Shown piece after piece: positions 833 to 25,944 of a DNA stretch of 29,316 nt. The translations under genes were made by a program, and so were the position numbers. Origin of the DNA: a virus; the IMG/VR virus record IMGVR_UViG_3300046028_003087, positions 1 to 29,316 of that record; one strand, given 5' to 3'. The notes beneath the pieces were generated by a model. The model saw only the letters and a program-made list of their open reading frames with translations. It ran no database searches and was not told the origin of the DNA. Each line of letters opens with the position of its first letter. Within the stretch, counting starts at the first letter, position 1.

Positions 833-893
833 TAAGAAAATCACTAAAAAGAATCTTCAGAAATTGATGGTTTACATTGAAAAGAAAAAATGA
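795..893 (+). CDS. Small basic 32-residue protein
   Basis: An ATG at 795 opens a 32-codon frame inside the end of the connector gene. It ends in TGA at 891-893, which overlaps the ATG of the next gene as ATGA. The product is lysine-rich (about ten Lys) and ends in KKK. The stop/start overlap matches the coupling used throughout this genome, and it fills the only gap between the two structural genes; that is the main support. No function can be read from the sequence. Confidence 0.5.
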   Translation: MNENTTPTVKIANKKITKKNLQKLMVYIEKKK

Positions 894-3073
894 TAACTAA
901 AAACATTCTTTACAAATATTTTAAGGATTTTGCAGACAATCATTTGCAAATTAAAGACTATGGCTATGGTGACCTATGGGAGATTAGTAGTTCACAAGCG
1001 ACGACTTATCCTTTGTTTTGGGTAAGTCCGCAACCGTCTAACATAAGCGGCAATGAAATAACTTACAACTTTAATATTTTAATCGGAGATAGGCTTGAGG
1101 ATGGGGATGCAAATAAAGTCGAAGTTGAGAGTGACACTTTTCAAATTGGGTTAGACCTTTTAGCGACTTTAAACATAAATAGAGATGTTGACTTAGACAA
1201 GAACAATACTTTAACTCCTTTCATCCATGATTTTAAAGATAGGATTGCAGGGCATTTAATAACTTTAAGCGTAACGGCTGATTTTGACTACAATGAGTGT
1301 GCAGTTCCAACTACGGGAACACCAACACCTCCGACAAGTTCATGCCCAGTTGCGATAATAACAATTAACGGTGTTGCTTACGGAAGTGTGGGGAGTGGAA
1401 ACACCGAAGATATAGCAGTCGTGAATACTTTAGGTGTTCCTGTTGGTTCGTTAATTAGTGGTAATTGGGTAGTAACTGCAAGTGGTGGAGATGCAACGGC
1501 AGTACTTAAGAATAGTGCAGGAACAACGATATCGACAACAATCATAGCAAGTGGAGGGACTTCAAACATAACCGCTCCCGATGGAAGTGCAGTCCTTAAA
1601 AACACTTTAAATACAACTTTATCAACTACAAGTATTTTAAGTAATGGGTCTTCTAATATAACTGCCCCCGATTCTACTTCAGTTTTAAAAGATACGGCAG
1701 GGACTACTTTGTCAACTACAACTATTGCCAGTGGAGTTAGTACAAATGTGACTGCCCCCGATTCAACGGCAGTAATTAAAGATGACTCAGGTAATATTTT
1801 AAAAACTTCAGTAATACCAAGCAATGTTAGTCAAGATGTAACAATCAATGACTCAACTGCAGTTCTTAAAAATACATTAGCAACAACATTATCAACTACA
1901 AGTATAAACGCTGAATCTTCTGCAAACATTACCGCCCCTGATTCCACAATAACAATTAATTCAGCGAGTTTTTCTCCTTACCCAAGTGGGGCAACGTCTA
2001 ACATATTAGTTAAAGATGGAACGGGGACTCAAGTAGGTTCTAAAGTAGGTAGTGAGTGGATTGTGCCGACGGGTGGTGGTGGGACAATGACGGCAAATTT
2101 TAGTGCTGATATACTTACCGCAGAAGTTGGGCAAACAATTACTTTTACTGATACATCAGATAATAGCCCCACTGAATGGGCTTGGGATTTTAACGGTGAG
2201 GGTAGTTCTAATTTACAAAACCCTATTTTCCAATTTGATAGTGTAGGGTTAAAAACTATTACATTATTAGCGGCTAAAGATGGCGTGGGAGATTTTGTTA
2301 CTAAATCAAATTATATCCAAATTGTTCAAGATAATATAGTTACTGATTTTTTAACCGCTACAAGCATAAGCGATACAACAATTATAAGTGCATTAACTCA
2401 ATTAGTTTATGATTTAAGAGTAAATAATTTATTAAGTAAATTTACTGCCATTTATCCATTTGTCGGAGGTACTGCTACAACGCATAAATTTAATCTACTT
2501 GACCCTCAAGATACAAACGGGGCTTATCGGTTAGTATTTTCAGGAGGTTGGACACATACATCAAGAGGAATAAAACCAAACGGGACAAACGCGAGTGCTG
2601 ATACTTTTTTGGCGCAAAATGTTTTAGCACAAAATGATGTCCATGTTTCCGTTTATTTGATGGATAACTTATCAAGTTCAGGAGCTGTAAGTGGTGTTGA
2701 TATTGCAACGGGGGCAACATTTTATTTATCTTCATGGTATCAAGGTGTTGCAGGTGGGATTTCAAACGTAAATAATACGGGGTTACAAGTAATAAGTAGA
2801 ACGGATGAGGCATATTTTGGATTTTATATTGCAAGTCGGTTAAGTTCTACTACAAGAAAATTCTTTTTAAATGGTAAATTAAAAGACACATTTGTTGCCA
2901 CAAGTAACACCCCCAGTTCAACTACTTTTAAATTGTCTTTAGGGAGTGTAGGGGAATATAGTATAAGAGGTCAAGCGTTTACTTCATTAGGGGCAGGATT
3001 AACGGATAGTGAGGCAGATTTGCTTAATACAATAGTTAGTAATTACCAAAACATTTTAACCCGCAGAGTATGA
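890..3073 (+). CDS. Large fibre-like structural protein with 30-residue repeats, PKD and LamG-like domains
   Basis: 727 residues. In order: an N-terminal alpha/beta domain (1-140), probably the part that docks on the virion; a Pro/Thr linker (141-152); a short beta domain (153-200); five tandem 30-residue repeats (201-350), each opening like D-S-T-A-V-L-K and closing I-T-A-P; a Gly linker (394-398); a PKD domain (about 401-480) with the typical FTDTS and WAWDFNGEG strings; and a C-terminal concanavalin/LamG-like beta sandwich (about 515-715). PKD and LamG folds bind glycans or proteins, so a receptor-contacting fibre or virion decoration role is likely. The ATG overlaps the preceding stop, and its own TGA overlaps the next ATG. 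The long minus-strand frame across the repeats is a shadow. Confidence 0.75.
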   Translation: MITKNILYKYFKDFADNHLQIKDYGYGDLWEISSSQATTYPLFWVSPQPSNISGNEITYNFNILIGDRLEDGDANKVEVESDTFQIGLDLLATLNINRDVDLDKNNTLTPFIHDFKDRIAGHLITLSVTADFDYNECAVPTTGTPTPPTSSCPVAIITINGVAYGSVGSGNTEDIAVVNTLGVPVGSLISGNWVVTASGGDATAVLKNSAGTTISTTIIASGGTSNITAPDGSAVLKNTLNTTLSTTSILSNGSSNITAPDSTSVLKDTAGTTLSTTTIASGVSTNVTAPDSTAVIKDDSGNILKTSVIPSNVSQDVTINDSTAVLKNTLATTLSTTSINAESSANITAPDSTITINSASFSPYPSGATSNILVKDGTGTQVGSKVGSEWIVPTGGGGTMTANFSADILTAEVGQTITFTDTSDNSPTEWAWDFNGEGSSNLQNPIFQFDSVGLKTITLLAAKDGVGDFVTKSNYIQIVQDNIVTDFLTATSISDTTIISALTQLVYDLRVNNLLSKFTAIYPFVGGTATTHKFNLLDPQDTNGAYRLVFSGGWTHTSRGIKPNGTNASADTFLAQNVLAQNDVHVSVYLMDNLSSSGAVSGVDIATGATFYLSSWYQGVAGGISNVNNTGLQVISRTDEAYFGFYIASRLSSTTRKFFLNGKLKDTFVATSNTPSSTTFKLSLGSVGEYSIRGQAFTSLGAGLTDSEADLLNTIVSNYQNILTRRV
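1490..1939 (+). repeat. Five tandem 90-bp coding repeats
   Basis: Five in-frame units of exactly 30 codons (residues 201-230, 231-260, 261-290, 291-320, 321-350 of the fibre-like protein). Units 1, 2, 3 and 5 end ITAP or VTAP; unit 4 is the most diverged and ends VTIN. The third unit and the flanking ones share the A-x-T-T-L-S-T-T core. A sixth, decayed unit may start at residue 351. Such arrays usually form extended beta shafts and change copy number by recombination. Confidence 0.85.
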
Positions 3074-4946: not shown

Positions 4947-5021
4947 ATGTCACAATTTTTGCAAAATCCATCCCGTTTTGTAATGTACTTTAAATTGTAG
5001 AATAGAAATATAAAAATAAAT

Positions 5022-5052
5022 TTTGCATTGTGAGTTTAAACTTGTAATATTG
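5022..5052 (+). promoter_or_regulatory. Bacteroidetes-type promoter, TTTG-N19-TAATATTG
   Basis: TTTG at 5022-5025 and TAATATTG at 5045-5052 are 19 bases apart, matching the -33/-7 layout of Bacteroidetes promoters with one change from TAnnTTTG. The core TTTAAACTTGTAATATTG (5035-5052) recurs exactly at 24329-24346. Only five bases separate the -7 box from the ATG at 5058, so the mRNA would begin at or next to the start codon (leaderless). Confidence 0.65.
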
Positions 5053-9532: not shown

Positions 9533-9956
9533 ACACCTTGCCCCTTATTTGCCTTACAAAATTTGTGGGGTATGCGAAGGAGAACACGCAATAGAGTTAG
9601 TGTTAGGCGTATATGAAAACGAAATAATAACCGATATTGATGGTACAACATACGACAATTTTAAACCTATCCTTAGACCATTAAGCGACCTTACAAAAGA
9701 GATTGAACACAACGGAGAAAAGTTTGTGCCGATTGAATGGTTTGAAATAGGAGACGATGATAATTGGTTTTATGAGTTTGATTCAGGGAATATAAGATTA
9801 ATAAAAAATCTTGCAACAATATCAAAACATAATTTATCGCATGATATTAAATTTTTACCCTTTGCAGTTACTCAGCAATTAATAGAATGGCACTTCGACG
9901 TATTCGGACTGATTGAAAACAAGTTAGCAATAGACATTAACACAATTACAAAATGA
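9516..9956 (+). CDS. Phage protein with KHLAPYLPY start and C-terminal EWHFDVFGLI
   Basis: 146 residues. The start is taken at 9516 (MKLEIKHLAPYLPY) and not at the in-frame ATG at 9465, because this N-terminus and the strings KPILRPLSDLTKEIE and LIEWHFDVFGLI are the ones seen in a widespread small protein of Bacteroidetes prophages. The family has no known activity to my knowledge. The protein is acidic and probably globular. It overlaps its neighbours on both sides (17 and 4 bases). Confidence 0.75.
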   Translation: MKLEIKHLAPYLPYKICGVCEGEHAIELVLGVYENEIITDIDGTTYDNFKPILRPLSDLTKEIEHNGEKFVPIEWFEIGDDDNWFYEFDSGNIRLIKNLATISKHNLSHDIKFLPFAVTQQLIEWHFDVFGLIENKLAIDINTITK

Positions 9957-10261
9957 GAACCACAGTTAAAAAAATCGGCATGTTTTTCAACACGATCAAA
10001 GAAAGTGGCGAAGAACTGAAAGCTTCAAAAGAAAAAACACTTAAGCAAGACCAAATAATTCTAAACGCTTTTAAGCCTAACGGAATGAACAGTGCATGGC
10101 TAATGTATAACGCTAATGTATTGCCTCACGGAACGCCTATAACCTCTTATCGCAGAAGTTTCAACACTCTACTTGAGCAAGGGAAAATAGAAAGAGTCGG
10201 GCAAAGAATCGGCAACCTGGATAAAAAAGAATTTACTTATAAATTAAATTTGGAAAGTTAA
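9953..10261 (+). CDS. Putative winged-helix DNA-binding protein
   Basis: 102 residues. After a basic N-terminal arm, residues 30-100 read as three helices and a wing: LKQDQIILNAFK, SAWLMYNAN, SYRRSFNTLLEQGKIERVGQ, then KKEFTYKL. The pattern 'S-x-R-R-x-x-x-x-L-x-x-x-G-x-I-x-x-x-G' is typical of the recognition helix and wing of winged-helix proteins. It is the last gene before the promoter and RNA element at 10249-10377, so it may act on that site; this is inference. The stop is within the promoter's spacer. Confidence 0.6.
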   Translation: MRTTVKKIGMFFNTIKESGEELKASKEKTLKQDQIILNAFKPNGMNSAWLMYNANVLPHGTPITSYRRSFNTLLEQGKIERVGQRIGNLDKKEFTYKLNLES

Positions 10262-10279
10262 AACATTAACCTATATTTG
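10249..10279 (+). promoter_or_regulatory. Strong Bacteroidetes-type promoter, TTTG-N19-TATATTTG
   Basis: TTTG at 10249-10252 and a perfect -7 box TATATTTG at 10272-10279 are 19 bases apart. It is the best promoter match in the window. It fires into the structured RNA and terminator at 10285-10377 and, if transcription reads through, into the helicase and replication genes. Confidence 0.8.
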
Positions 10280-10284
10280 CAGTG

Positions 10285-10377
10285 TTATGATGGGGTGAAG
10301 ACCGTCAATTAAATAACAAGATACTTGCCACGCCTTTAGAGATTGCTTCACCAACTCTATCGGTTGTGGCTTTTTTT
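10285..10377 (+). ncRNA. Structured leader or small RNA ending in a terminator
   Basis: About 93 bases between the promoter and the T run hold no convincing gene, only a mini-frame ATG ATG GGG TGA at 10287. GGTGAAG (10294-10300) is perfectly complementary to CTTCACC (10346-10352), which lies in the middle of the 13-base loop of the terminator hairpin. The RNA can therefore form either a pseudoknot with the terminator or an alternative pairing. It could be a free small RNA or an attenuator for the operon that starts at 10388. The 5' end is approximate. Confidence 0.55.
10327..10377 (+). terminator. Intrinsic terminator before the helicase operon
   Basis: GCCAC (10327-10331) pairs with GTGGC (10366-10370), continued inward by CC/GG and, after a small internal loop, TAGAG (10337-10341) with CTCTA (10355-10359). 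Seven T follow at 10371-10377. No promoter box lies between this site and the ATG at 10388, so downstream genes need readthrough. Confidence 0.75.
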
Positions 10378-10387
10378 ATACAACAAA

Positions 10388-11761
10388 ATGAACAAACAAT
10401 ATTTAGAATTTATCGAAAACAAAAAACATTCGATTGGGGACTTTGGATTTAAGGCAAATTACATTCCTGACATTGCCTTTGACTTTCAAAAGTTTATCAT
10501 TGAAAAATCAATTAAAAAGGGGCGCATTGCGGTCTTCGCTGACACTGGATTAGGCAAAACACTTATTCAGTTATCTATTGCAAAAAACATCATTCAGCAC
10601 ACTAATAAGAAAGTTTTAATACTTACCCCTTTAGCAGTTGCATTCCAATTTATTTTAGAAGCTGAGAAATTGGGTATAGATGACATTGAATATTCAAAGG
10701 ACGGGAAACATACTAAGAAGATAGTAATTTGCAATTACGAGCGTTTACATTATTTTAATGAAAATGATTTTGTAGGGGTTATTTTAGACGAGAGTTCAAT
10801 ACTTAAAAACTTTGACGGCAAAATAAAATCAGCAGTTACCTCATTTGTTAAAAAGATCCCTTATAGATTTTTAAGTACTGCAACTCCAAGCCCTAATGAT
10901 TTTATAGAATTAGGGACGAGTTCAGAAGCTTTGGGATATATGGGGTATATGGATATGCTTGGTAAGTTTTTTAAAAATAATCAAAACTCAGTAGATTCAA
11001 ATAATAGGAATATTGGCGAAAAGTTTTATTTAAAACCACACGCAGAAAAGGACTTTTTTGCTTGGGTTAATCAATGGGCTATTATGTGTAAAATGCCAAG
11101 TGATTTAGGATTCTCAAACGATAGGTATAATTTGCCTGAATTGATAGTAAATAGACACATTGTAAAAAACCAAAGTTTAATAGATATTAACGGGCAAGTT
11201 CAAATGTTTACACCTATCGCTAAGTCAATGACCGAAGTAAGACATGAGCAAAAACAAACCGAAGAGAAAAGATGTTTTAAGGCTATTGAATTGGCTCAGG
11301 ATAAGACTTCGGTATATTGGTGTAATACAAACAATGAAAGTTCTATTTTAAAGTCCTTAGACAAAGATTCAGTAGAGATAATAGGTAGTCAATCTATTGA
11401 GAAAAAAGAAGAAATACTTTTAGCGTTTGCTAATGGCGAAATCAAAAGACTAATTACTAAAGCAAAAATGACTTCAATGGGTTTAAACTGGCAACATTGT
11501 AATCATTCAGTATTTTTCCCTACATGGAGCTATGAACAATATTACCAAGCTATTAGACGTTTTTGGAGATTCGGGCAAAAAAGCGATGTTACTATTGAAA
11601 TGGTAGTGTCTGATGGGCAAACAAGAGTATTAGAAGCTTTACAACAAAAAACCGAAAAGGCTATACAGTTACATAAAAACTTAACCGAAAACGTAAACAG
11701 AAGTTTCACAAACATTACAAAAGAATTTAACAAAGAAATAATCAAACCAACATTTATTTAA
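10388..11761 (+). CDS. SNF2-type DEAD/DEAH helicase
   Basis: 457 residues from the ATG at 10388; an in-frame ATG at 10343 would place the N-terminus across the terminator and is rejected. Two RecA lobes are visible: Walker A DTGLGKT (52-58), motif II LDES (133-136), motif III-like STATPSPND (163-171), and in lobe 2 the motif VI string QAIRRFWRFGQ (387-397). This is the layout of phage SNF2-like helicases, which move along double-stranded DNA. The methyltransferase gene follows one base later, a pairing seen in many phages. It may act in replication, recombination or protection from host restriction; sequence alone does not decide. Confidence 0.85.
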   Translation: MNKQYLEFIENKKHSIGDFGFKANYIPDIAFDFQKFIIEKSIKKGRIAVFADTGLGKTLIQLSIAKNIIQHTNKKVLILTPLAVAFQFILEAEKLGIDDIEYSKDGKHTKKIVICNYERLHYFNENDFVGVILDESSILKNFDGKIKSAVTSFVKKIPYRFLSTATPSPNDFIELGTSSEALGYMGYMDMLGKFFKNNQNSVDSNNRNIGEKFYLKPHAEKDFFAWVNQWAIMCKMPSDLGFSNDRYNLPELIVNRHIVKNQSLIDINGQVQMFTPIAKSMTEVRHEQKQTEEKRCFKAIELAQDKTSVYWCNTNNESSILKSLDKDSVEIIGSQSIEKKEEILLAFANGEIKRLITKAKMTSMGLNWQHCNHSVFFPTWSYEQYYQAIRRFWRFGQKSDVTIEMVVSDGQTRVLEALQQKTEKAIQLHKNLTENVNRSFTNITKEFNKEIIKPTFI

Positions 11762-11762
11762 C

Positions 11763-12776
11763 ATGGAAAACAAAGTAAAAGACCAATTAGTCACAGACAA
11801 CTACGCAATATACAATTCAGATTGTATGTTAGTTATGCCAACTTTAGGCGACGAAAGTATTGACCTAAGTGTTTATAGCCCACCATTTGCAGGGTTATAC
11901 AATTATTCAAGTTCGGAAAATGACTTTAGTAATTGCGAAAGCAAAGAACAGTTTTTAAATCAATATGAATTTTTAGTAGCTGAGATTTCAAGAGTTACTA
12001 AAAAAGGGCGTATTAGTGCGGTGCATTGTACGGATGTATTTGATAATACTTGTCGTTTGTGGGACTTCCCAAATGAGATTATAAGAATACATACTAAGTA
12101 TGGATTTGAGTATCGCAATAGAATTACTATTTGGAAAGAACCTTTAAAAGTTCGTATGAGAACAATGGTTCAATCTTTAATGCACAAATTTATAGTAGAG
12201 GATTCGACTAAATGTTTTACTGCAATGCCTGACTATGTTTTAGTCTTTACTAAAAAAGGCGAAAACCAAGTGCCAGTAACACACCCATTCGGTATAAATG
12301 ATTATGCAGGTGAAACACCTATTTTGCCAAATATTTTAAGGGCTTGGAATAATGCAAATAATTCAAACTTAAATGAAGTTGAACTTTGGGAACGACTAAA
12401 CAACACCAACGAAAGCGACAAGATTACTAAACTTAATCACTATATTTGGCAAAGGTATGCTTCGAGTGTTTGGGATGACATTAGAATAGATAATGTATTA
12501 CCATTTAGAGATAGCAAAGAAGAGGACGACGAAAAGCACGTACACCCATTACAATTAGATGTAATTGATAGAATTGTTGAATTATACTCAAACCCTAATG
12601 AAGTTGTTTTAACGCCTTTTATGGGTGTAGGGAGTGAAGTATTTAGCCCAGTTTCAATGGGGAGAAAAGCAATAGGGATTGAACTAAAAGATAGCTACTT
12701 CAAACAAGCTAAATTAAACTTACAAGAAGCGACTGTAAGGTATAAAAATAAAATCAAACAAGAATCTTTATTTTAA
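11763..12776 (+). CDS. DNA methyltransferase (N4-cytosine or N6-adenine type)
   Basis: 337 residues. The catalytic motif IV SPPF (39-42) precedes the SAM-binding motif I FMGVG (286-290) and GIELK (305-309), the beta-class order. SPPF is the form usual for N4-cytosine enzymes, but N6-adenine specificity cannot be excluded. A target-recognition region would lie between about 90 and 270. No nuclease gene is adjacent, so it is probably an orphan phage methylase that shields phage DNA or marks it for replication. It begins one base after the helicase stop, suggesting joint function. Confidence 0.85.
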   Translation: MENKVKDQLVTDNYAIYNSDCMLVMPTLGDESIDLSVYSPPFAGLYNYSSSENDFSNCESKEQFLNQYEFLVAEISRVTKKGRISAVHCTDVFDNTCRLWDFPNEIIRIHTKYGFEYRNRITIWKEPLKVRMRTMVQSLMHKFIVEDSTKCFTAMPDYVLVFTKKGENQVPVTHPFGINDYAGETPILPNILRAWNNANNSNLNEVELWERLNNTNESDKITKLNHYIWQRYASSVWDDIRIDNVLPFRDSKEEDDEKHVHPLQLDVIDRIVELYSNPNEVVLTPFMGVGSEVFSPVSMGRKAIGIELKDSYFKQAKLNLQEATVRYKNKIKQESLF

Positions 12777-12784
12777 ATAATATC

Positions 12785-13429
12785 ATGGCAAAAAGATTAA
12801 CTGATACGGAGAAATGGAAAAAACCATTTGTAAGGGGCTTAGATGCTCCTTACAAGCTCCTTTGGTTTTATATTTTAGATGACTGCGACCATGCAGGAAT
12901 TTGGCAAGTGGATGAAGATGTCGCTAAAATCAGAGTAGATAAAAGTATAGATTTTGAAATTGCTAAAGAACTTTTTAAAGAACAAATACAAGTAATAGAT
13001 AACGGGGATAAGTGGTTTATTTTTGATTTTGTAGAGTTCCAATATGGAGTTTTGAATCCTGATAATAGAGTTCATAAGTCAGTTTTAGACATACTAAATA
13101 AATATAAAATTAAGCCCCTTAGAAGCCCCTTAAAAGGTGCTATGGATAAAGATAAAGATAAAGACAAGGATAAAGACAAAGATAAAGAGCCGAAAAATTA
13201 CTTTGATTTAATCTTTGAAAATTATCTTGGGATGAGAAAATCAATTAAAAAACCTGCAACCGAATTAGCAATAGAATTAATTAAAAAAGATTTGAATAAC
13301 TTTGCACCTGGCAATGAAGAAAAACAAATTTTAATTTTAGAGCAATCAATTAAAAATAATTGGGCAGGGGTATTTCCATTGAAACAAAACGAAGAACCTA
13401 AAACACAATCATACTTAAAAGAATTTTAA
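12785..13429 (+). CDS. Phage replication protein with (Asp-Lys)7 linker
   Basis: 214 residues. The N-terminal part (about 10-105) reads as a winged-helix domain: PYKLLWFYILDDCDHAGIWQVD, then DKWFIFDFVEFQYG. It matches the N-termini of phage replisome organisers and DnaD-like proteins. A linker follows with seven Asp-Lys pairs (121-134), encoded by near-perfect GAT AAA repeats, then a helical C-terminal domain ending with NNWAGVFPLK, a form usual for helicase-loader regions. The DnaB gene begins right after the stop. The likely job is to bind the origin and load DnaB. Repeats near the linker may be the origin itself. Confidence 0.7.
   Translation: MAKRLTDTEKWKKPFVRGLDAPYKLLWFYILDDCDHAGIWQVDEDVAKIRVDKSIDFEIAKELFKEQIQVIDNGDKWFIFDFVEFQYGVLNPDNRVHKSVLDILNKYKIKPLRSPLKGAMDKDKDKDKDKDKDKEPKNYFDLIFENYLGMRKSIKKPATELAIELIKKDLNNFAPGNEEKQILILEQSIKNNWAGVFPLKQNEEPKTQSYLKEF
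12831..12840 (-). repeat. Inverted copy of the AAGCCCCTTA repeat
   Basis: TAAGGGGCTT here is the exact reverse complement of the 10-mer found twice at 13112 and 13123. Degenerate copies (GCTCCTTA, AAGCTCCTTT) follow within 25 bases. GC-rich 10-mers repeated three times in one AT-rich gene stand out. Confidence 0.45.
13111..13190 (+). other. Candidate replication origin: tandem iterons plus AT-rich hexamer repeat
   Basis: Two direct copies of AAGCCCCTTA (13112-13121 and 13123-13132), 11 bases apart, are followed at once by a run of GATAAA-type hexamers (about 13145-13188). Repeats next to an easily melted tract in the middle of an initiator gene are the plan of the lambda origin inside gene O. 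No function has been tested, and the hexamers also encode the Asp-Lys linker. Confidence 0.4.
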
Positions 13430-14668
13430 ATGAACAACGCAACCGACATAGAAGAATCAGTAATTGGAGTTTTAATGATTGACAGTACTGCGATAATGCG
13501 TTGTACTATTGAGCCACATCATTGCTACTCAGAGGAGAATAAAACAATCTTAAAGGCTATTTTTGAACTTGCAGAAGAGAACAAACCTTTTGACATGTTA
13601 TCAATTAATCAAAAGTTAGGTGGTAAGTTAATGAATGAGTTAGTCGCTATAAGCTCACGTCTTAGCTCAAAAGCAAACTTAGAGTACCATTGTTCAATAA
13701 TTATTCAAAAGTTCATTACAAGGGAATTAATCATGCTTTGTCAACGAACTATCAGCGAAGCAAACAACATCGATAATGATATTTTCCAAACTATTCAAAA
13801 ACACACCACCGAGTTAGAATCATATTCGATCAAACACAAAAAAGATTTTAATAAGTTTGAAACCGTTGCAAAAGAAGTAATTAAGAAAATAGAGTTGATG
13901 CAATCGAGTGGAAAGAGTTTAGTCGGTTTAGATACTGGGTATGAAAGGCTAAATAAAATTTCACACGGGTGGCATTCGCCTGACTTGGTTATTTTAGCAG
14001 CGAGACCTGCGACGGGTAAGACTGCATTCGCTTTGAACCTTGCGGTTAATTTGGCAAAACAAAATATACCAGTTGCATTTTTTAGCCTGGAGATGTCAAC
14101 CGAACAATTAGCGACAAGGGTAATTAGTTCAATGACGGGGATATACTCTAATTATTTGGCAAAGGCTGAAATACATGAGGGGAATTGGCGAACTATTTTA
14201 AGTACTGATTTTAATTTGCCTTTATATATTGACGATTCAGCGAGTTTAAATATCGTAGATTTTAAAGAAAAGGCAAGAAAAGCTAAAAAGAACTTTGGAA
14301 TTAAGGCTATATTTGTAGACTATTTACAACTTTTAACGGTCTATGGCAAAGGGAATAGAGAACAAGAGATAAGTACTATTTCAAGAACTTTCAAAGCAAT
14401 GGCCAAAGAATTAGATATTCCAATTATCGCACTGGCGCAGTTGAGTAGGGACGTTGAGAAAAGAAGTGGAGAGCCAAGATTAAGCGACTTAAGAGAGTCG
14501 GGAGCTATTGAGCAAGATGCTGACATTGTAATTGCATTACACAATGAAGAACCAGAAAGCGACAATCCATTGATAAAAGTATTATATTTGAAGCATAGAA
14601 ACGGCGAGGTAGGATTCGTTAGACTTCAATTTGAAAAAGGTAAACAATTATTTAAAGATACATTATAA
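13430..14668 (+). CDS. dnaB: Replicative DNA helicase DnaB
   Basis: 412 residues. The N-terminal helical DnaB domain (1-110) starts IEESVIGVLM, and the RecA-like ATPase domain shows Walker A ARPATGKT (191-198), FSLEMS (218-223), Walker B VDYLQLL (296-302), AQLSRDVEKR (336-345) and LRESGAIEQDAD (354-365), all standard DnaB strings. It unwinds DNA at the fork as a hexamer on the lagging strand. It starts straight after the putative loader gene. Slightly shorter than bacterial DnaB, as phage versions often are. No intein. Confidence 0.97.
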   Translation: MNNATDIEESVIGVLMIDSTAIMRCTIEPHHCYSEENKTILKAIFELAEENKPFDMLSINQKLGGKLMNELVAISSRLSSKANLEYHCSIIIQKFITRELIMLCQRTISEANNIDNDIFQTIQKHTTELESYSIKHKKDFNKFETVAKEVIKKIELMQSSGKSLVGLDTGYERLNKISHGWHSPDLVILAARPATGKTAFALNLAVNLAKQNIPVAFFSLEMSTEQLATRVISSMTGIYSNYLAKAEIHEGNWRTILSTDFNLPLYIDDSASLNIVDFKEKARKAKKNFGIKAIFVDYLQLLTVYGKGNREQEISTISRTFKAMAKELDIPIIALAQLSRDVEKRSGEPRLSDLRESGAIEQDADIVIALHNEEPESDNPLIKVLYLKHRNGEVGFVRLQFEKGKQLFKDTL

Positions 14669-15273: not shown

Positions 15274-15788
15274 AAACCTGCAAAATATGTCTCAATCAGT
15301 TTGAACCGAGTAAACCATTACAAGTTACTTGCTCATATTCTTGTGCATTATCGTATGCAAGAGGGCACATGGCAAAAAAAGTAAAGGCAGAGAACAAGGT
15401 TAAAAAGGAAAGGATGAAGACCAAGAGCCAACACTTAAAGGAATTGCAAACTATATTTAACAAGTACATTCGAACAAGGGATTTAAATTTGCCTTGCGTT
15501 TCATGTAATGATAGGATAAGTGGAACTCCTCACGCTTCACACTTTCTTTCAGTTGGTTCGCATCCTGCCTTAAGATTTAATGAGTTTAACGTTCATTCAT
15601 CTTGTAGCCAATGCAACACCCACCTACATGGTAACCTTGTAGAATACTCTTTAAGACTTCCCGATAGGATAGGCCAAGACAACTACGATAAGTTAATAGC
15701 CAGTAGAGGCGATAGGTTGCAGTTAAGTATTCCTGAGATTGAACTATTGAAAACCATTTATAAAAATAAAATAAAAGACTACATTTAA
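15270..15788 (+). CDS. ninG: NinG/Rap recombination endonuclease
   Basis: 172 residues. Two cysteine clusters frame a basic helix: CKICxxxF at 4-11 with Cys21 and Cys25, then CVSC (76-79), HASHF (88-92) and SCSQCNTHLHGN (111-122), followed by LIASRGDR. This is the layout of lambda NinG (Rap), a structure-specific nuclease that resolves D-loops and Holliday junctions. It fits at the end of the recombination-replication region. The start overlaps the small gene's stop. Confidence 0.9.
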   Translation: MKTCKICLNQFEPSKPLQVTCSYSCALSYARGHMAKKVKAENKVKKERMKTKSQHLKELQTIFNKYIRTRDLNLPCVSCNDRISGTPHASHFLSVGSHPALRFNEFNVHSSCSQCNTHLHGNLVEYSLRLPDRIGQDNYDKLIASRGDRLQLSIPEIELLKTIYKNKIKDYI

Positions 15789-15795
15789 AAAATAA

Positions 15796-15827
15796 TTTGG
15801 TACTTTGAAGATAAATATTTAATATTG
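15796..15827 (+). promoter_or_regulatory. Bacteroidetes-type promoter, TTTG-N20-TAATATTG
   Basis: TTTG at 15796-15799 and TAATATTG at 15820-15827 are 20 bases apart. The -7 box is the same variant as at 5045 and 24339. The ATG at 15836 is eight bases downstream. It would drive the unit that begins with the sigma-like regulator. Confidence 0.6.
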
Positions 15828-23731: not shown

Positions 23732-24314
23732 TGAAATATTAGACAAGTGTGCCGATGTCCTACTTGAGTGGGGCAACGCCAATGCTGAGCAGATGCGAAT
23801 CTTGTTAAGGCAAAGACTAAAGCAAAAACAAACTGAATCTAACTTAGCACAAAGTATCCAAGCGAAGAATCCGACCATCAAAGGTGGGGTTGTTTCAATG
23901 GCTATCGATCTAAATGATTATTGGATGTTTGTGGACTTGGGTGTAAAGGGTTTAGTCAATAAGTCGGCAGTCGGGATACCTACAAAGACATACACGAATA
24001 AAGACTATCCGAATGGGTTTAGTTTTAAAAACATGGGGACACCGCCTCAGATGATTAGTAATTTACAAGACTATATCGCAAGGAAAGGTATTCAAGCCAG
24101 AGTAAGTAAAACTGAAACGGGTAGACAAGTAATTCAAACTTCTTTTCAAATGGCTCAAGCTATGGCCGATGCAATCAAGATGAAAGGTATAGACGGTACA
24201 AGGTTCTATTCAGATACCTTTAACGATGAATCATACAACGAACTAACTAACAAACTAAGTTTGATTATAGGTCAAGAGGTGGAGTTTAGATTAATCACCG
24301 AATTTAAAAGATAA
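23718..24314 (+). CDS. Tail-completion / HK97 gp10-like protein
   Basis: 198 residues. A helical start (ILDKCADVLLEWGNANAEQMRILLRQRL) is followed by beta strands (VVSMAIDLNDYWMFVDLGVKG), a basic loop and KNMGTPPQMI, and a C-terminal section with KGIDGTRFYSDTF. This order, with the YW-x-F-V-D-x-G-x-x-G stretch, recalls HK97 gp10-type proteins that join tail and head. The start overlaps the small gene before it. Family call moderate. Confidence 0.6.
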   Translation: MKISDEILDKCADVLLEWGNANAEQMRILLRQRLKQKQTESNLAQSIQAKNPTIKGGVVSMAIDLNDYWMFVDLGVKGLVNKSAVGIPTKTYTNKDYPNGFSFKNMGTPPQMISNLQDYIARKGIQARVSKTETGRQVIQTSFQMAQAMADAIKMKGIDGTRFYSDTFNDESYNELTNKLSLIIGQEVEFRLITEFKR

Positions 24315-24346
24315 TTTGTTTATGATACTTTAAACTTGTAATATTG
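24315..24346 (+). promoter_or_regulatory. Bacteroidetes-type promoter, TTTG-N20-TAATATTG
   Basis: TTTG at 24315-24318 and TAATATTG at 24339-24346 are 20 bases apart. TTTAAACTTGTAATATTG at 24329-24346 is identical to the core of the promoter at 5022-5052. It begins right at the end of the preceding gene and serves the single gene at 24370. Confidence 0.65.
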
Positions 24347-24585: not shown

Positions 24586-24605
24586 TTATTTTATCTTTGA
24601 AGTCT

Positions 24606-24613
24606 TATATTTG
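24606..24613 (+). promoter_or_regulatory. Possible -7 box TATATTTG before a hairpin terminator
   Basis: A perfect TAnnTTTG at 24606-24613, with a second one (TATCTTTG) at 24592-24599. No -33 TTTG stands at the right distance from either (the nearest is at 24576-24579), so promoter activity is uncertain. ATG TAA follows at 24617-24622. Confidence 0.4.
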
Positions 24614-24635
24614 TTCATGTAAGATTCAAAAAGAG

Positions 24636-24675
24636 AATAGGTCAGTTTACTCGCAAGGTGCTGACCTATTTTTTT
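24636..24675 (+). terminator. Intrinsic terminator with 10-bp perfect stem
   Basis: AATAGGTCAG (24636-24645) pairs perfectly with CTGACCTATT (24661-24670) across a 15-base loop, followed by a run of T to 24675. It closes the moron-like unit and separates it from the tail genes. With the -7 box at 24606 it could also end a short RNA of about 60 bases. Confidence 0.88.
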
Positions 24676-24682
24676 ATGTAGG

Positions 24683-24690
24683 TATTTTTG
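24683..24690 (+). promoter_or_regulatory. Possible -7 box TATTTTTG for the tail genes
   Basis: TATTTTTG fits TAnnTTTG and lies 24 bases before the tail gene ATG at 24715, just after the terminator, where a late promoter would be expected. No good -33 element is visible upstream, so a phage factor or readthrough may be needed. Confidence 0.4.
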
Positions 24691-24714
24691 TCATTAAATA
24701 ATATAATATAGATA

Positions 24715-25944
24715 ATGGCAGTTACATTCATTCAACAACCTGACTTATTTGTTAGTGGTTTTGACCCTATCATTTATTTGGCGAGTTCTTCTCAGACTAC
24801 TCAAACAAACTTTAGATATAGGATTCAAGTCTTAGATGCTTCGGCAAATGTAATCACCGAGTTGAGAAAACCTGCTTACTATGCTGATGGAACGGTTGAC
24901 TTAGATGCACATAGAATAATTGAGAACTATTTGAGTTATGACATGACTAATCTAATCGCAGGTTCGGTTGGTTTTAAAACGGGTGTAAATGTCTACAAAA
25001 AATTCAAGATAAACATAAGAGAGGAATACGGAACTGTTATAAGTGGGTACGCCAGTGCAGAGAGTAGTTACATTTACGCTATTAATTCGGCTCAGACTTA
25101 CCTAAAACAAATTAACAGTCCTATTGATGACTTGGTTTATAAAGGCATTCCGACAACCTACGGGACATTCTTAACTAATCAACCATCGACCATTGATATA
25201 AGAGTCGGGGATTCTTACGAGTTAGGATTCTTAAACTATGCGACAAACGGGACTGACCATATGAGGGTTAAAACTTATGACGATAGTGGAACGCTACTTA
25301 AAAGTTCAACCTTTGCAAATGCTTGGGTAGCTGACTCAACAGACAAGGAACACTTCTTAAGTGTATTGGTTGGCCCTGCAAACTTAAACTCATGGACTGT
25401 TGCAAGTGGTTCGGCTCAACCTATGATTGCTGACAATGTGGCTAAGTATGAAATCAGTTTTGAAAACAACACCCCGACAAGGGTTTCAAATACTTTGACT
25501 TTTAAAATTGATCGTGAGTGTACACGGGATGGGAATTATAATCGTTTATTTTGGCTCAATCCTTTAGGCAGAATAGATGCCTTTAATTTCACTCAAATAG
25601 CTGACGACAATATAACCGTACAAAGTTCTAACTACAATCGTTTACAAGGAACGAGAACAAGTTCAGGGATTACATTCAACACTTACTCACACGAAAGAAG
25701 CAACTTCTTTAATTCGTCAAAACAAAAATACACCCTTAACTCTGGTTATGTGAATAGCGAAACAAGTCTTTGGCTTAAGGAGTTAGTTCAATCGCCTTTG
25801 ATTTATATGATTATCGGAAGTCAGTTTGTAGCGGTCAACATCTTAACAACTGAATACCAAGCTAAGAGTACAATAAAAGAAAAACTATTTAACGTGACTA
25901 TGGAAGTGGAATTGAGTGCGGATACTAAAAGACAAAGACTATGA
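24715..25944 (+). CDS. Tail or baseplate protein
   Basis: 409 residues, beta-rich with no signal peptide or membrane segment. The start (TFIQQPDLFVSGFDPIIYLASSS) and the C-terminal part (KYTLNSGYVNSETSLWLKELVQSPLIYMI, here in pieces, then a strand-rich end) are of a type I associate with distal tail or baseplate proteins of Bacteroidetes siphophages. A conserved RECTRDGNYNRLFWLNPLG-like centre is where several such proteins have an aromatic patch. The gene is coupled to the very large tail protein by an ATGA overlap. It probably forms the ring that holds the tip. Exact part not decided by sequence. Confidence 0.65.
   Translation: MAVTFIQQPDLFVSGFDPIIYLASSSQTTQTNFRYRIQVLDASANVITELRKPAYYADGTVDLDAHRIIENYLSYDMTNLIAGSVGFKTGVNVYKKFKINIREEYGTVISGYASAESSYIYAINSAQTYLKQINSPIDDLVYKGIPTTYGTFLTNQPSTIDIRVGDSYELGFLNYATNGTDHMRVKTYDDSGTLLKSSTFANAWVADSTDKEHFLSVLVGPANLNSWTVASGSAQPMIADNVAKYEISFENNTPTRVSNTLTFKIDRECTRDGNYNRLFWLNPLGRIDAFNFTQIADDNITVQSSNYNRLQGTRTSSGITFNTYSHERSNFFNSSKQKYTLNSGYVNSETSLWLKELVQSPLIYMIIGSQFVAVNILTTEYQAKSTIKEKLFNVTMEVELSADTKRQRL

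Follow-up and report, generated by a model that had tools for sequence, protein, structure and literature searches.

The leader of the helicase gene

The window analyzed here is a stretch of 29,316 nucleotides from a virus (IMG/VR record IMGVR_UViG_3300046028_003087), in which a leader precedes a DNA helicase gene that is followed on the same strand by genes for a DNA methyltransferase, a replication initiation protein, and a DnaB-like helicase (Table 1). A relative of the first helicase, in locus L001, gives matches to the Pfam families Helicase_C, DEAD, and SNF2. On the + strand, the leader presents in order a promoter, a 5' hairpin (H1), a linker of 8 nt, a terminator hairpin, a run of seven T, and the helicase ATG.

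Table 1. Features of the leader and of the genes behind it, with their positions in the window.
Feature	Position	Strand	Description or basis
Bacteroidota-type promoter	10250-10279	+	TTG at 10250-10252, 19-nt spacer, -7 box TATATTTG at 10272-10279
Predicted short RNA, ~96 nt	10283-10378	+	Both ends inferred; fold z-score, minimum free energy
H1, 5' hairpin	10283-10318	+	Outer stem 10283-10288/10313-10318, inner stem 10289-10293/10302-10306, 8-nt loop 10294-10301; minimum-free-energy fold
Kissing word GGTGAAG in the H1 loop	10294-10300	+	Exact complement of 10346-10352
Single-stranded linker AGATACTT	10319-10326	+	Sequence
Intrinsic terminator	10327-10377	+	Outer stem 10327-10334/10362-10370, apical stem 10337-10345/10352-10359, T-run 10371-10377
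Kissing word CTTCACC in the terminator apical loop	10346-10352	+	Sequence, detector, fold
Helicase gene	10388-11761	+	PHROG 62, DNA helicase, E 1.4e-50
DNA methyltransferase	11763-12776	+	PHROGs
Replication initiation, O-like	12785-13429	+	PHROGs
DnaB-like helicase	13430-14668	+	PHROGs

The promoter motif is of the type found in Bacteroidota, with TAnnTTTG at -7 and TTTG at -33 (PMC7366714), and H1 starts approximately 3 nt 3' of the -7 box. The first-pass annotation regarded this promoter as the best in the window and as the only one serving the downstream genes. The promoter itself is borne out, but the superlative is too strong, given that strict matches to the motif also occur inside open reading frames (8025, 28450, and 28574). 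The second statement also goes too far, since other genes, too, are preceded by a recurring promoter-like element; nonetheless, the interval from the terminator to the helicase ATG contains neither of the two. The recurring element is a direct repeat whose end reads (C)TTGTAATATTG or similar; its copies at 5007-5052, 15782-15827, and 24301-24346 lie shortly upstream of three different genes, and it may represent a second class of promoters in this phage.

The coordinates previously given for the pairing of GGTGAAG with CTTCACC were right, and the two words form a perfect helix of 7 bp. What had been overlooked is that H1 is a full hairpin (10283-10293 with 10302-10318), and therefore that its pairing with the terminator is a loop-loop, or kissing, contact. 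The terminator was also correctly described, with its seven T ending ten bases before the helicase ATG; a standard terminator scan missed it because the loop limit of the scan was 8. The leader has a fold z-score of -3.4, with none of 200 shuffled sequences being equally stable. The terminator hairpin by itself reaches -19.2 kcal/mol, and the predicted short RNA reaches -28.2 kcal/mol with the kissing pairs left out.

A detector was built for hairpins whose loop is complementary over at least 7 nt to the loop of a terminator hairpin further downstream. It gave exactly one match on both strands of the window, which is the unit described above, and this unit remained the sole match when the detector was anchored to the promoter and words of at least 6 nt were allowed. 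The chance background of the detector is 12 matches per shuffle of 684 kb and, therefore, lone unanchored matches were not counted as evidence.

Two other features of the window were observed. At 24586-24715, -7 boxes are followed by a strong hairpin with seven T and then by an open reading frame (24715), without a kissing word. Repeats spaced by 90 nt at 1495-1905 fall within the open reading frame 890-3073 and belong to a repetitive protein of structural type.

Recurrence in other phages and placement before genes

Relatives of the helicase were collected from 80 IMG/VR loci, and their leaders were read directly. The same architecture is found upstream of the helicase in sequences that are otherwise unrelated, with word pairs such as CTGGAAC/GTTCCAG (L018), GCTTCGAC/GTCGAAGC (L079), CCGCCAAG/CTTGGCGG (L056), GTAGTAGC/GCTACTAC (L022), and CGGGCAGG/CCTGCCCG (L072). 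A kissing unit is present in 8 of 51 non-redundant helicase leaders of 170 nt, versus a mean of 0.035 in 200 dinucleotide-shuffled sets. In the larger collection, the 44 non-redundant promoter-linked units located within 45 nt of an open reading frame carry 44 distinct words of 7-12 nt. Of 66 units, 23 have a -7 box no more than 22 nt from H1, versus 5 of 198 chance units. The median distance from the end of the box to H1 is 4 nt (44 units) and, therefore, H1 should form the extreme 5' end of the RNA. The linkers have a median of 17 nt and are 83% A+T. Linker length is not correlated with stem length across the units and so lends no independent support to the intramolecular geometry.

Units were also found in cultured Flavobacterium phages (snusmum), and in Flavobacterium phage snusmum6-1, the genome of which is complete (39 kb), the promoter-anchored detector finds exactly three places (units at 9728, 13667, and 14705). 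Several phages have two or three units with differing words. Loci anchored on the terminase (0.9 Mb), which served as a negative control for the regions of structural genes, held few units, namely five promoter-linked ones versus 0.5 in shuffles, and four of these five lie upstream of initiator-like genes.

Among the helicase relatives, L028, L038, L044, and L045 have a different structured leader directly before the helicase, which has no kissing word and consists of the hairpin TTGACACGATGTCAA and, behind it, the terminator GTGGGCGGTT...AACTGCCCAC with long arms. One relative named 'Rhodobacteraceae phage' (L096, OP947161.1) is 79% identical in the helicase region to the window's Bacteroidota-type phage, and its host assignment may merit a check.

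The units are placed close to gene starts. Indeed, 86% of 72 promoter-linked units lie within 45 nt of the start of an open reading frame, versus 33% for plain terminators and 31% for random positions. This leaves no room for a further promoter, and the promoter-motif scan found no fitting -7 box between terminator and ATG. The layout is thus that of transcription attenuators in general, with a promoter, a terminator, and a gene, and no promoter motif between the last two. The order promoter-terminator-ATG occurs in six non-redundant helicase leaders, all of which carry the kissing unit, while no terminator lies between promoter and ATG in the related helicase leaders without a unit.

These observations bear on the possibility that the unit is a boundary element, the terminator of which closes the preceding operon, with the kissing contact only stabilizing the terminator or the RNA end and the downstream gene being expressed by unregulated leak. 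Phage operons are compact and a kissing contact is able to stabilize the 3' end of an RNA, which makes such an arrangement conceivable. However, a boundary terminator normally lies upstream of the promoter of the next gene, whereas all promoter-linked units have their promoter upstream of the terminator, and the related leaders that lack the unit have no terminator at this position. For these reasons, we regard a boundary element as rather improbable.

The genes that follow the units code mainly for helicases, replication initiation or primosomal proteins, a DnaG zinc ribbon, and a Prim-Pol. Proteins with Lin1244_N, DUF1376, or DUF6291, also found after units, are tied by PHROGs to replication initiation or primosomal proteins, and genes of HNH or T5orf172 proteins of the homing endonuclease type lie downstream of some units. 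Given that the queries used to collect the loci were helicases, initiators, and terminases, and for most loci replication genes, the bias in gene class is suggestive only.

Covariation of the kissing helix

The first-pass annotation proposed that covariation of the pairs be looked for in related phages. It is found in homologous leaders of other phages, and not within the closest relatives of the window (L001-L003), which are too similar. Since these relatives are near-identical, what is concluded for the window unit is drawn from the shared architecture.

Two sets of homologous leaders were aligned. In the first set (A1), made of 29 distinct leaders upstream of a DUF1376-like gene, 99.4% of the cells are paired, versus 37-40% in slid controls. 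Ten pairs changed on both sides and, in the kissing helix, double changes affect five of the seven pairs, all of them Watson-Crick. In the second set (A2), made of nine leaders upstream of a DUF6291 gene, 99.3% of the cells are paired, versus about 32-42% in slid controls, and three of the nine kissing pairs changed on both sides. Compensatory changes are thus present in H1, in the terminator, and in the kissing helix, which shows that the kissing contact is maintained by selection.

Hypervariability of the words was considered as a general rule and rejected. It holds in A1, where the mean pairwise divergence is 39.6% in the kissing columns versus 12.4% in the other helices, and fails in A2, where the corresponding values are 14.2% and 17.6%. 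Separately, the linker in A1 (columns 32-53, leaders L229-L306) is near-invariant, with a divergence of 0.9%; it reads ATGTGTTTAGTGGTTAAATAA and could be an open reading frame of six codons, the stop of which is lost in L285.

Search for known RNA families and regulatory devices

At gathering thresholds, Rfam has no match in the window or in 14 relatives. With the threshold relaxed to E<=10, the matches of the window unit are all to other families and attributable to chance. Flavo-1 (RF01705), which the first-pass annotation wanted excluded while knowing of no named family for this RNA, is unmatched at both levels. At E<=10, the window unit and 20 other isolated units match neither skipping-rope (RF02924) nor Flavo-1 nor any riboswitch. 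Membership of the window unit in one of these known families is accordingly extremely improbable, even if skipping-rope invites the comparison by being an RNA with a covarying pseudoknot in Rfam 14 (PMC7779021).

The units and skipping-rope are alike in being pseudoknotted small RNAs of variable sequence, and skipping-rope was examined as a candidate and rejected. Its model is unmatched (E<=10) in 21 phage records as well as in the window unit and the 20 isolated units. The model was also run over 296 + 398 + 200 genomes, and this genome search gave two genuine skipping-rope RNAs, L384 and L385 (43.9 and 42.4 bits). In both, an outer stem closes a multi-hairpin junction with conserved GAGGU and GAGAU segments. 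This closed junction with its segments is absent from the units, and the unit detector in turn skips L384 and L385. A sub-threshold match of 28 bits in the Bacteroidota genome L094 was dismissed as chance.

The units were further searched for the parts of known regulatory devices. Pairing of an antiterminator with the 5' arm of the terminator is not enriched in 56 units (mean z -0.21, s.e. 0.15). For this reason, of the pseudoknot or competing structure initially suggested for the leader, the pseudoknot stands as a kissing pairing that covaries in relatives, and the classical competing antiterminator does not. Leader peptides are not enriched either, with a short open reading frame in 16 of 44 units versus 20.8 in shuffles. 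With regard to the TAnnTTTG type, an antisense -7 box is absent from the window leader and occurs in 7 of 44 units versus 6.0 in shuffles. In the literature, no description of such a kissing-hairpin terminator element was found.

These results also bear on an attenuator controlled by antisense RNA, as in pT181 and pIP501, in which an RNA from the opposite strand would bind H1 and trigger the terminator. The layout of leader hairpin, terminator, and replication gene is alike, and kissing loops are also used there (PMC4878617). Nonetheless, the window leader has no antisense -7 box, the family shows no enrichment for one, and no antiterminator pairing was detected, which makes antisense control very unlikely.

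Proposed function of the unit

The first-pass annotation left the choice between an attenuator and a phage small RNA. With a recurrent and covarying structure at hand, the attenuator is favored because the units are tied to gene starts and to replication genes; only its classical form with a competing structure falls away. We consider it reasonably probable that the leader is a cis-acting conditional intrinsic terminator of the phage replication genes, with an intramolecular kissing loop, and the placement of the unit argues for this reading. Given that the sole promoter motif seen for the helicase precedes the terminator, the gene would depend on read-through, for which the terminator would have to be partial.

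Under the proposed mechanism, RNA polymerase would initiate at the promoter and H1 would be made first. As the apical loop of the terminator emerges, the H1 loop could form base pairs with it, over 7-12 bp in the family, and whether this contact has formed while the polymerase is near the T-run would set how frequently the terminator fires. The contact could either delay closure of the terminator stem or keep the terminator compact. Terminated transcripts would be short RNAs of ~95 nt, while read-through transcripts would extend through the helicase, methyltransferase, initiator, and DnaB genes. The outcome may be set by the released RNA or by a factor of the phage or of the host.

The main alternative is that the unit makes a stand-alone phage RNA of ~95 nt with a kissing loop that acts in trans, perhaps by binding other RNAs or a protein of host or phage, with the downstream genes being transcribed by incidental read-through or from further upstream. 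Such an RNA would have here a complete small gene, with a promoter, H1 at the extreme 5' end, a 3' terminator, and a compact fold, and the several units per genome with differing words would also suit it. The tie to gene starts, mostly of replication genes, is not needed for action in trans, and there is no sequence conserved throughout the family that a protein or a target RNA could read, given the 44 different words. A trans-acting RNA is, for this reason, unlikely, though a serious contender.

A further idea, which is quite improbable, makes the released ~95-nt RNA a sensor of copy number. Since each RNA would bear both complementary loops, a released RNA could occupy the nascent H1 before the nascent terminator loop appears and so decide between stop and go. 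Swapping loops with nascent leaders would in this way give feedback from the copy number of the phage genome to the replication genes without an antisense gene. If so, fast-changing words, as seen in A1 but not in A2, would prevent cross-talk between co-infecting phages and between sister units, in the manner of plasmid incompatibility.

The window unit proves to be one of a broad group of phage leaders that was apparently not described before. The device is conserved in structure but not in sequence across the family, is found in many related phage contigs upstream of replication genes, and is absent from Rfam. Sequence-based tools overlook it because mainly base-pairing is kept. These findings suggest that replication in such phages is gated by a contact between a hairpin and a terminator, and the units would be a natural source of orthogonal kissing-loop terminators.

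Comparison with known systems

Type III toxin-antitoxin systems (ToxIN) have the same order as the units, with a promoter, a pseudoknotted RNA, a terminator, and a gene. The units differ in having no single downstream toxin gene, given that the genes vary and are mostly of replication, and in being one unit and not tandem repeats.

The replication leaders of IncB/IncI plasmids (PK-repBA RF01089, PK-repZ RF01087) resemble the units in that a replication gene has a loop-loop pseudoknot in its leader. These plasmid leaders are not known to contain a terminator, and the order of their two loops is the reverse of that in the phage units. Their pseudoknots control translation and are disrupted by antisense RNA (PMC9977716). 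Neither model matches the window unit (E<=10); the only match, below the cut-off, is that of the unit before the L031 helicase (L195, 70-125), with 26.6 bits versus a cut-off of 45. This unit has in common with the plasmid pseudoknots a AACUUGGC loop, to which the score is due, and has the terminator loop AACUUGGCGG, and its likeness to the plasmid pseudoknots is probably convergence.

In terminator riboswitches of the fluoride type, a leader pseudoknot near the terminator sets the read-through (PMC11077080). There, the aptamer sequence is conserved and pseudoknot and terminator stem are competing structures, whereas the units have no family-wide sequence conservation and their kissing pairs lie in the loop of the terminator.

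In pT181 and pIP501, an antisense RNA acts on the leader through kissing loops and attenuates the replication gene at a terminator (PMC4878617). The window has, as these plasmids do, a structured leader, loop-loop pairing, and an intrinsic terminator in the leader directly upstream of a replication gene. The plasmids need an antisense RNA and an antiterminator, neither an antisense promoter nor an antiterminator pairing having been found here, whereas in the phage units both kissing partners reside in one RNA.
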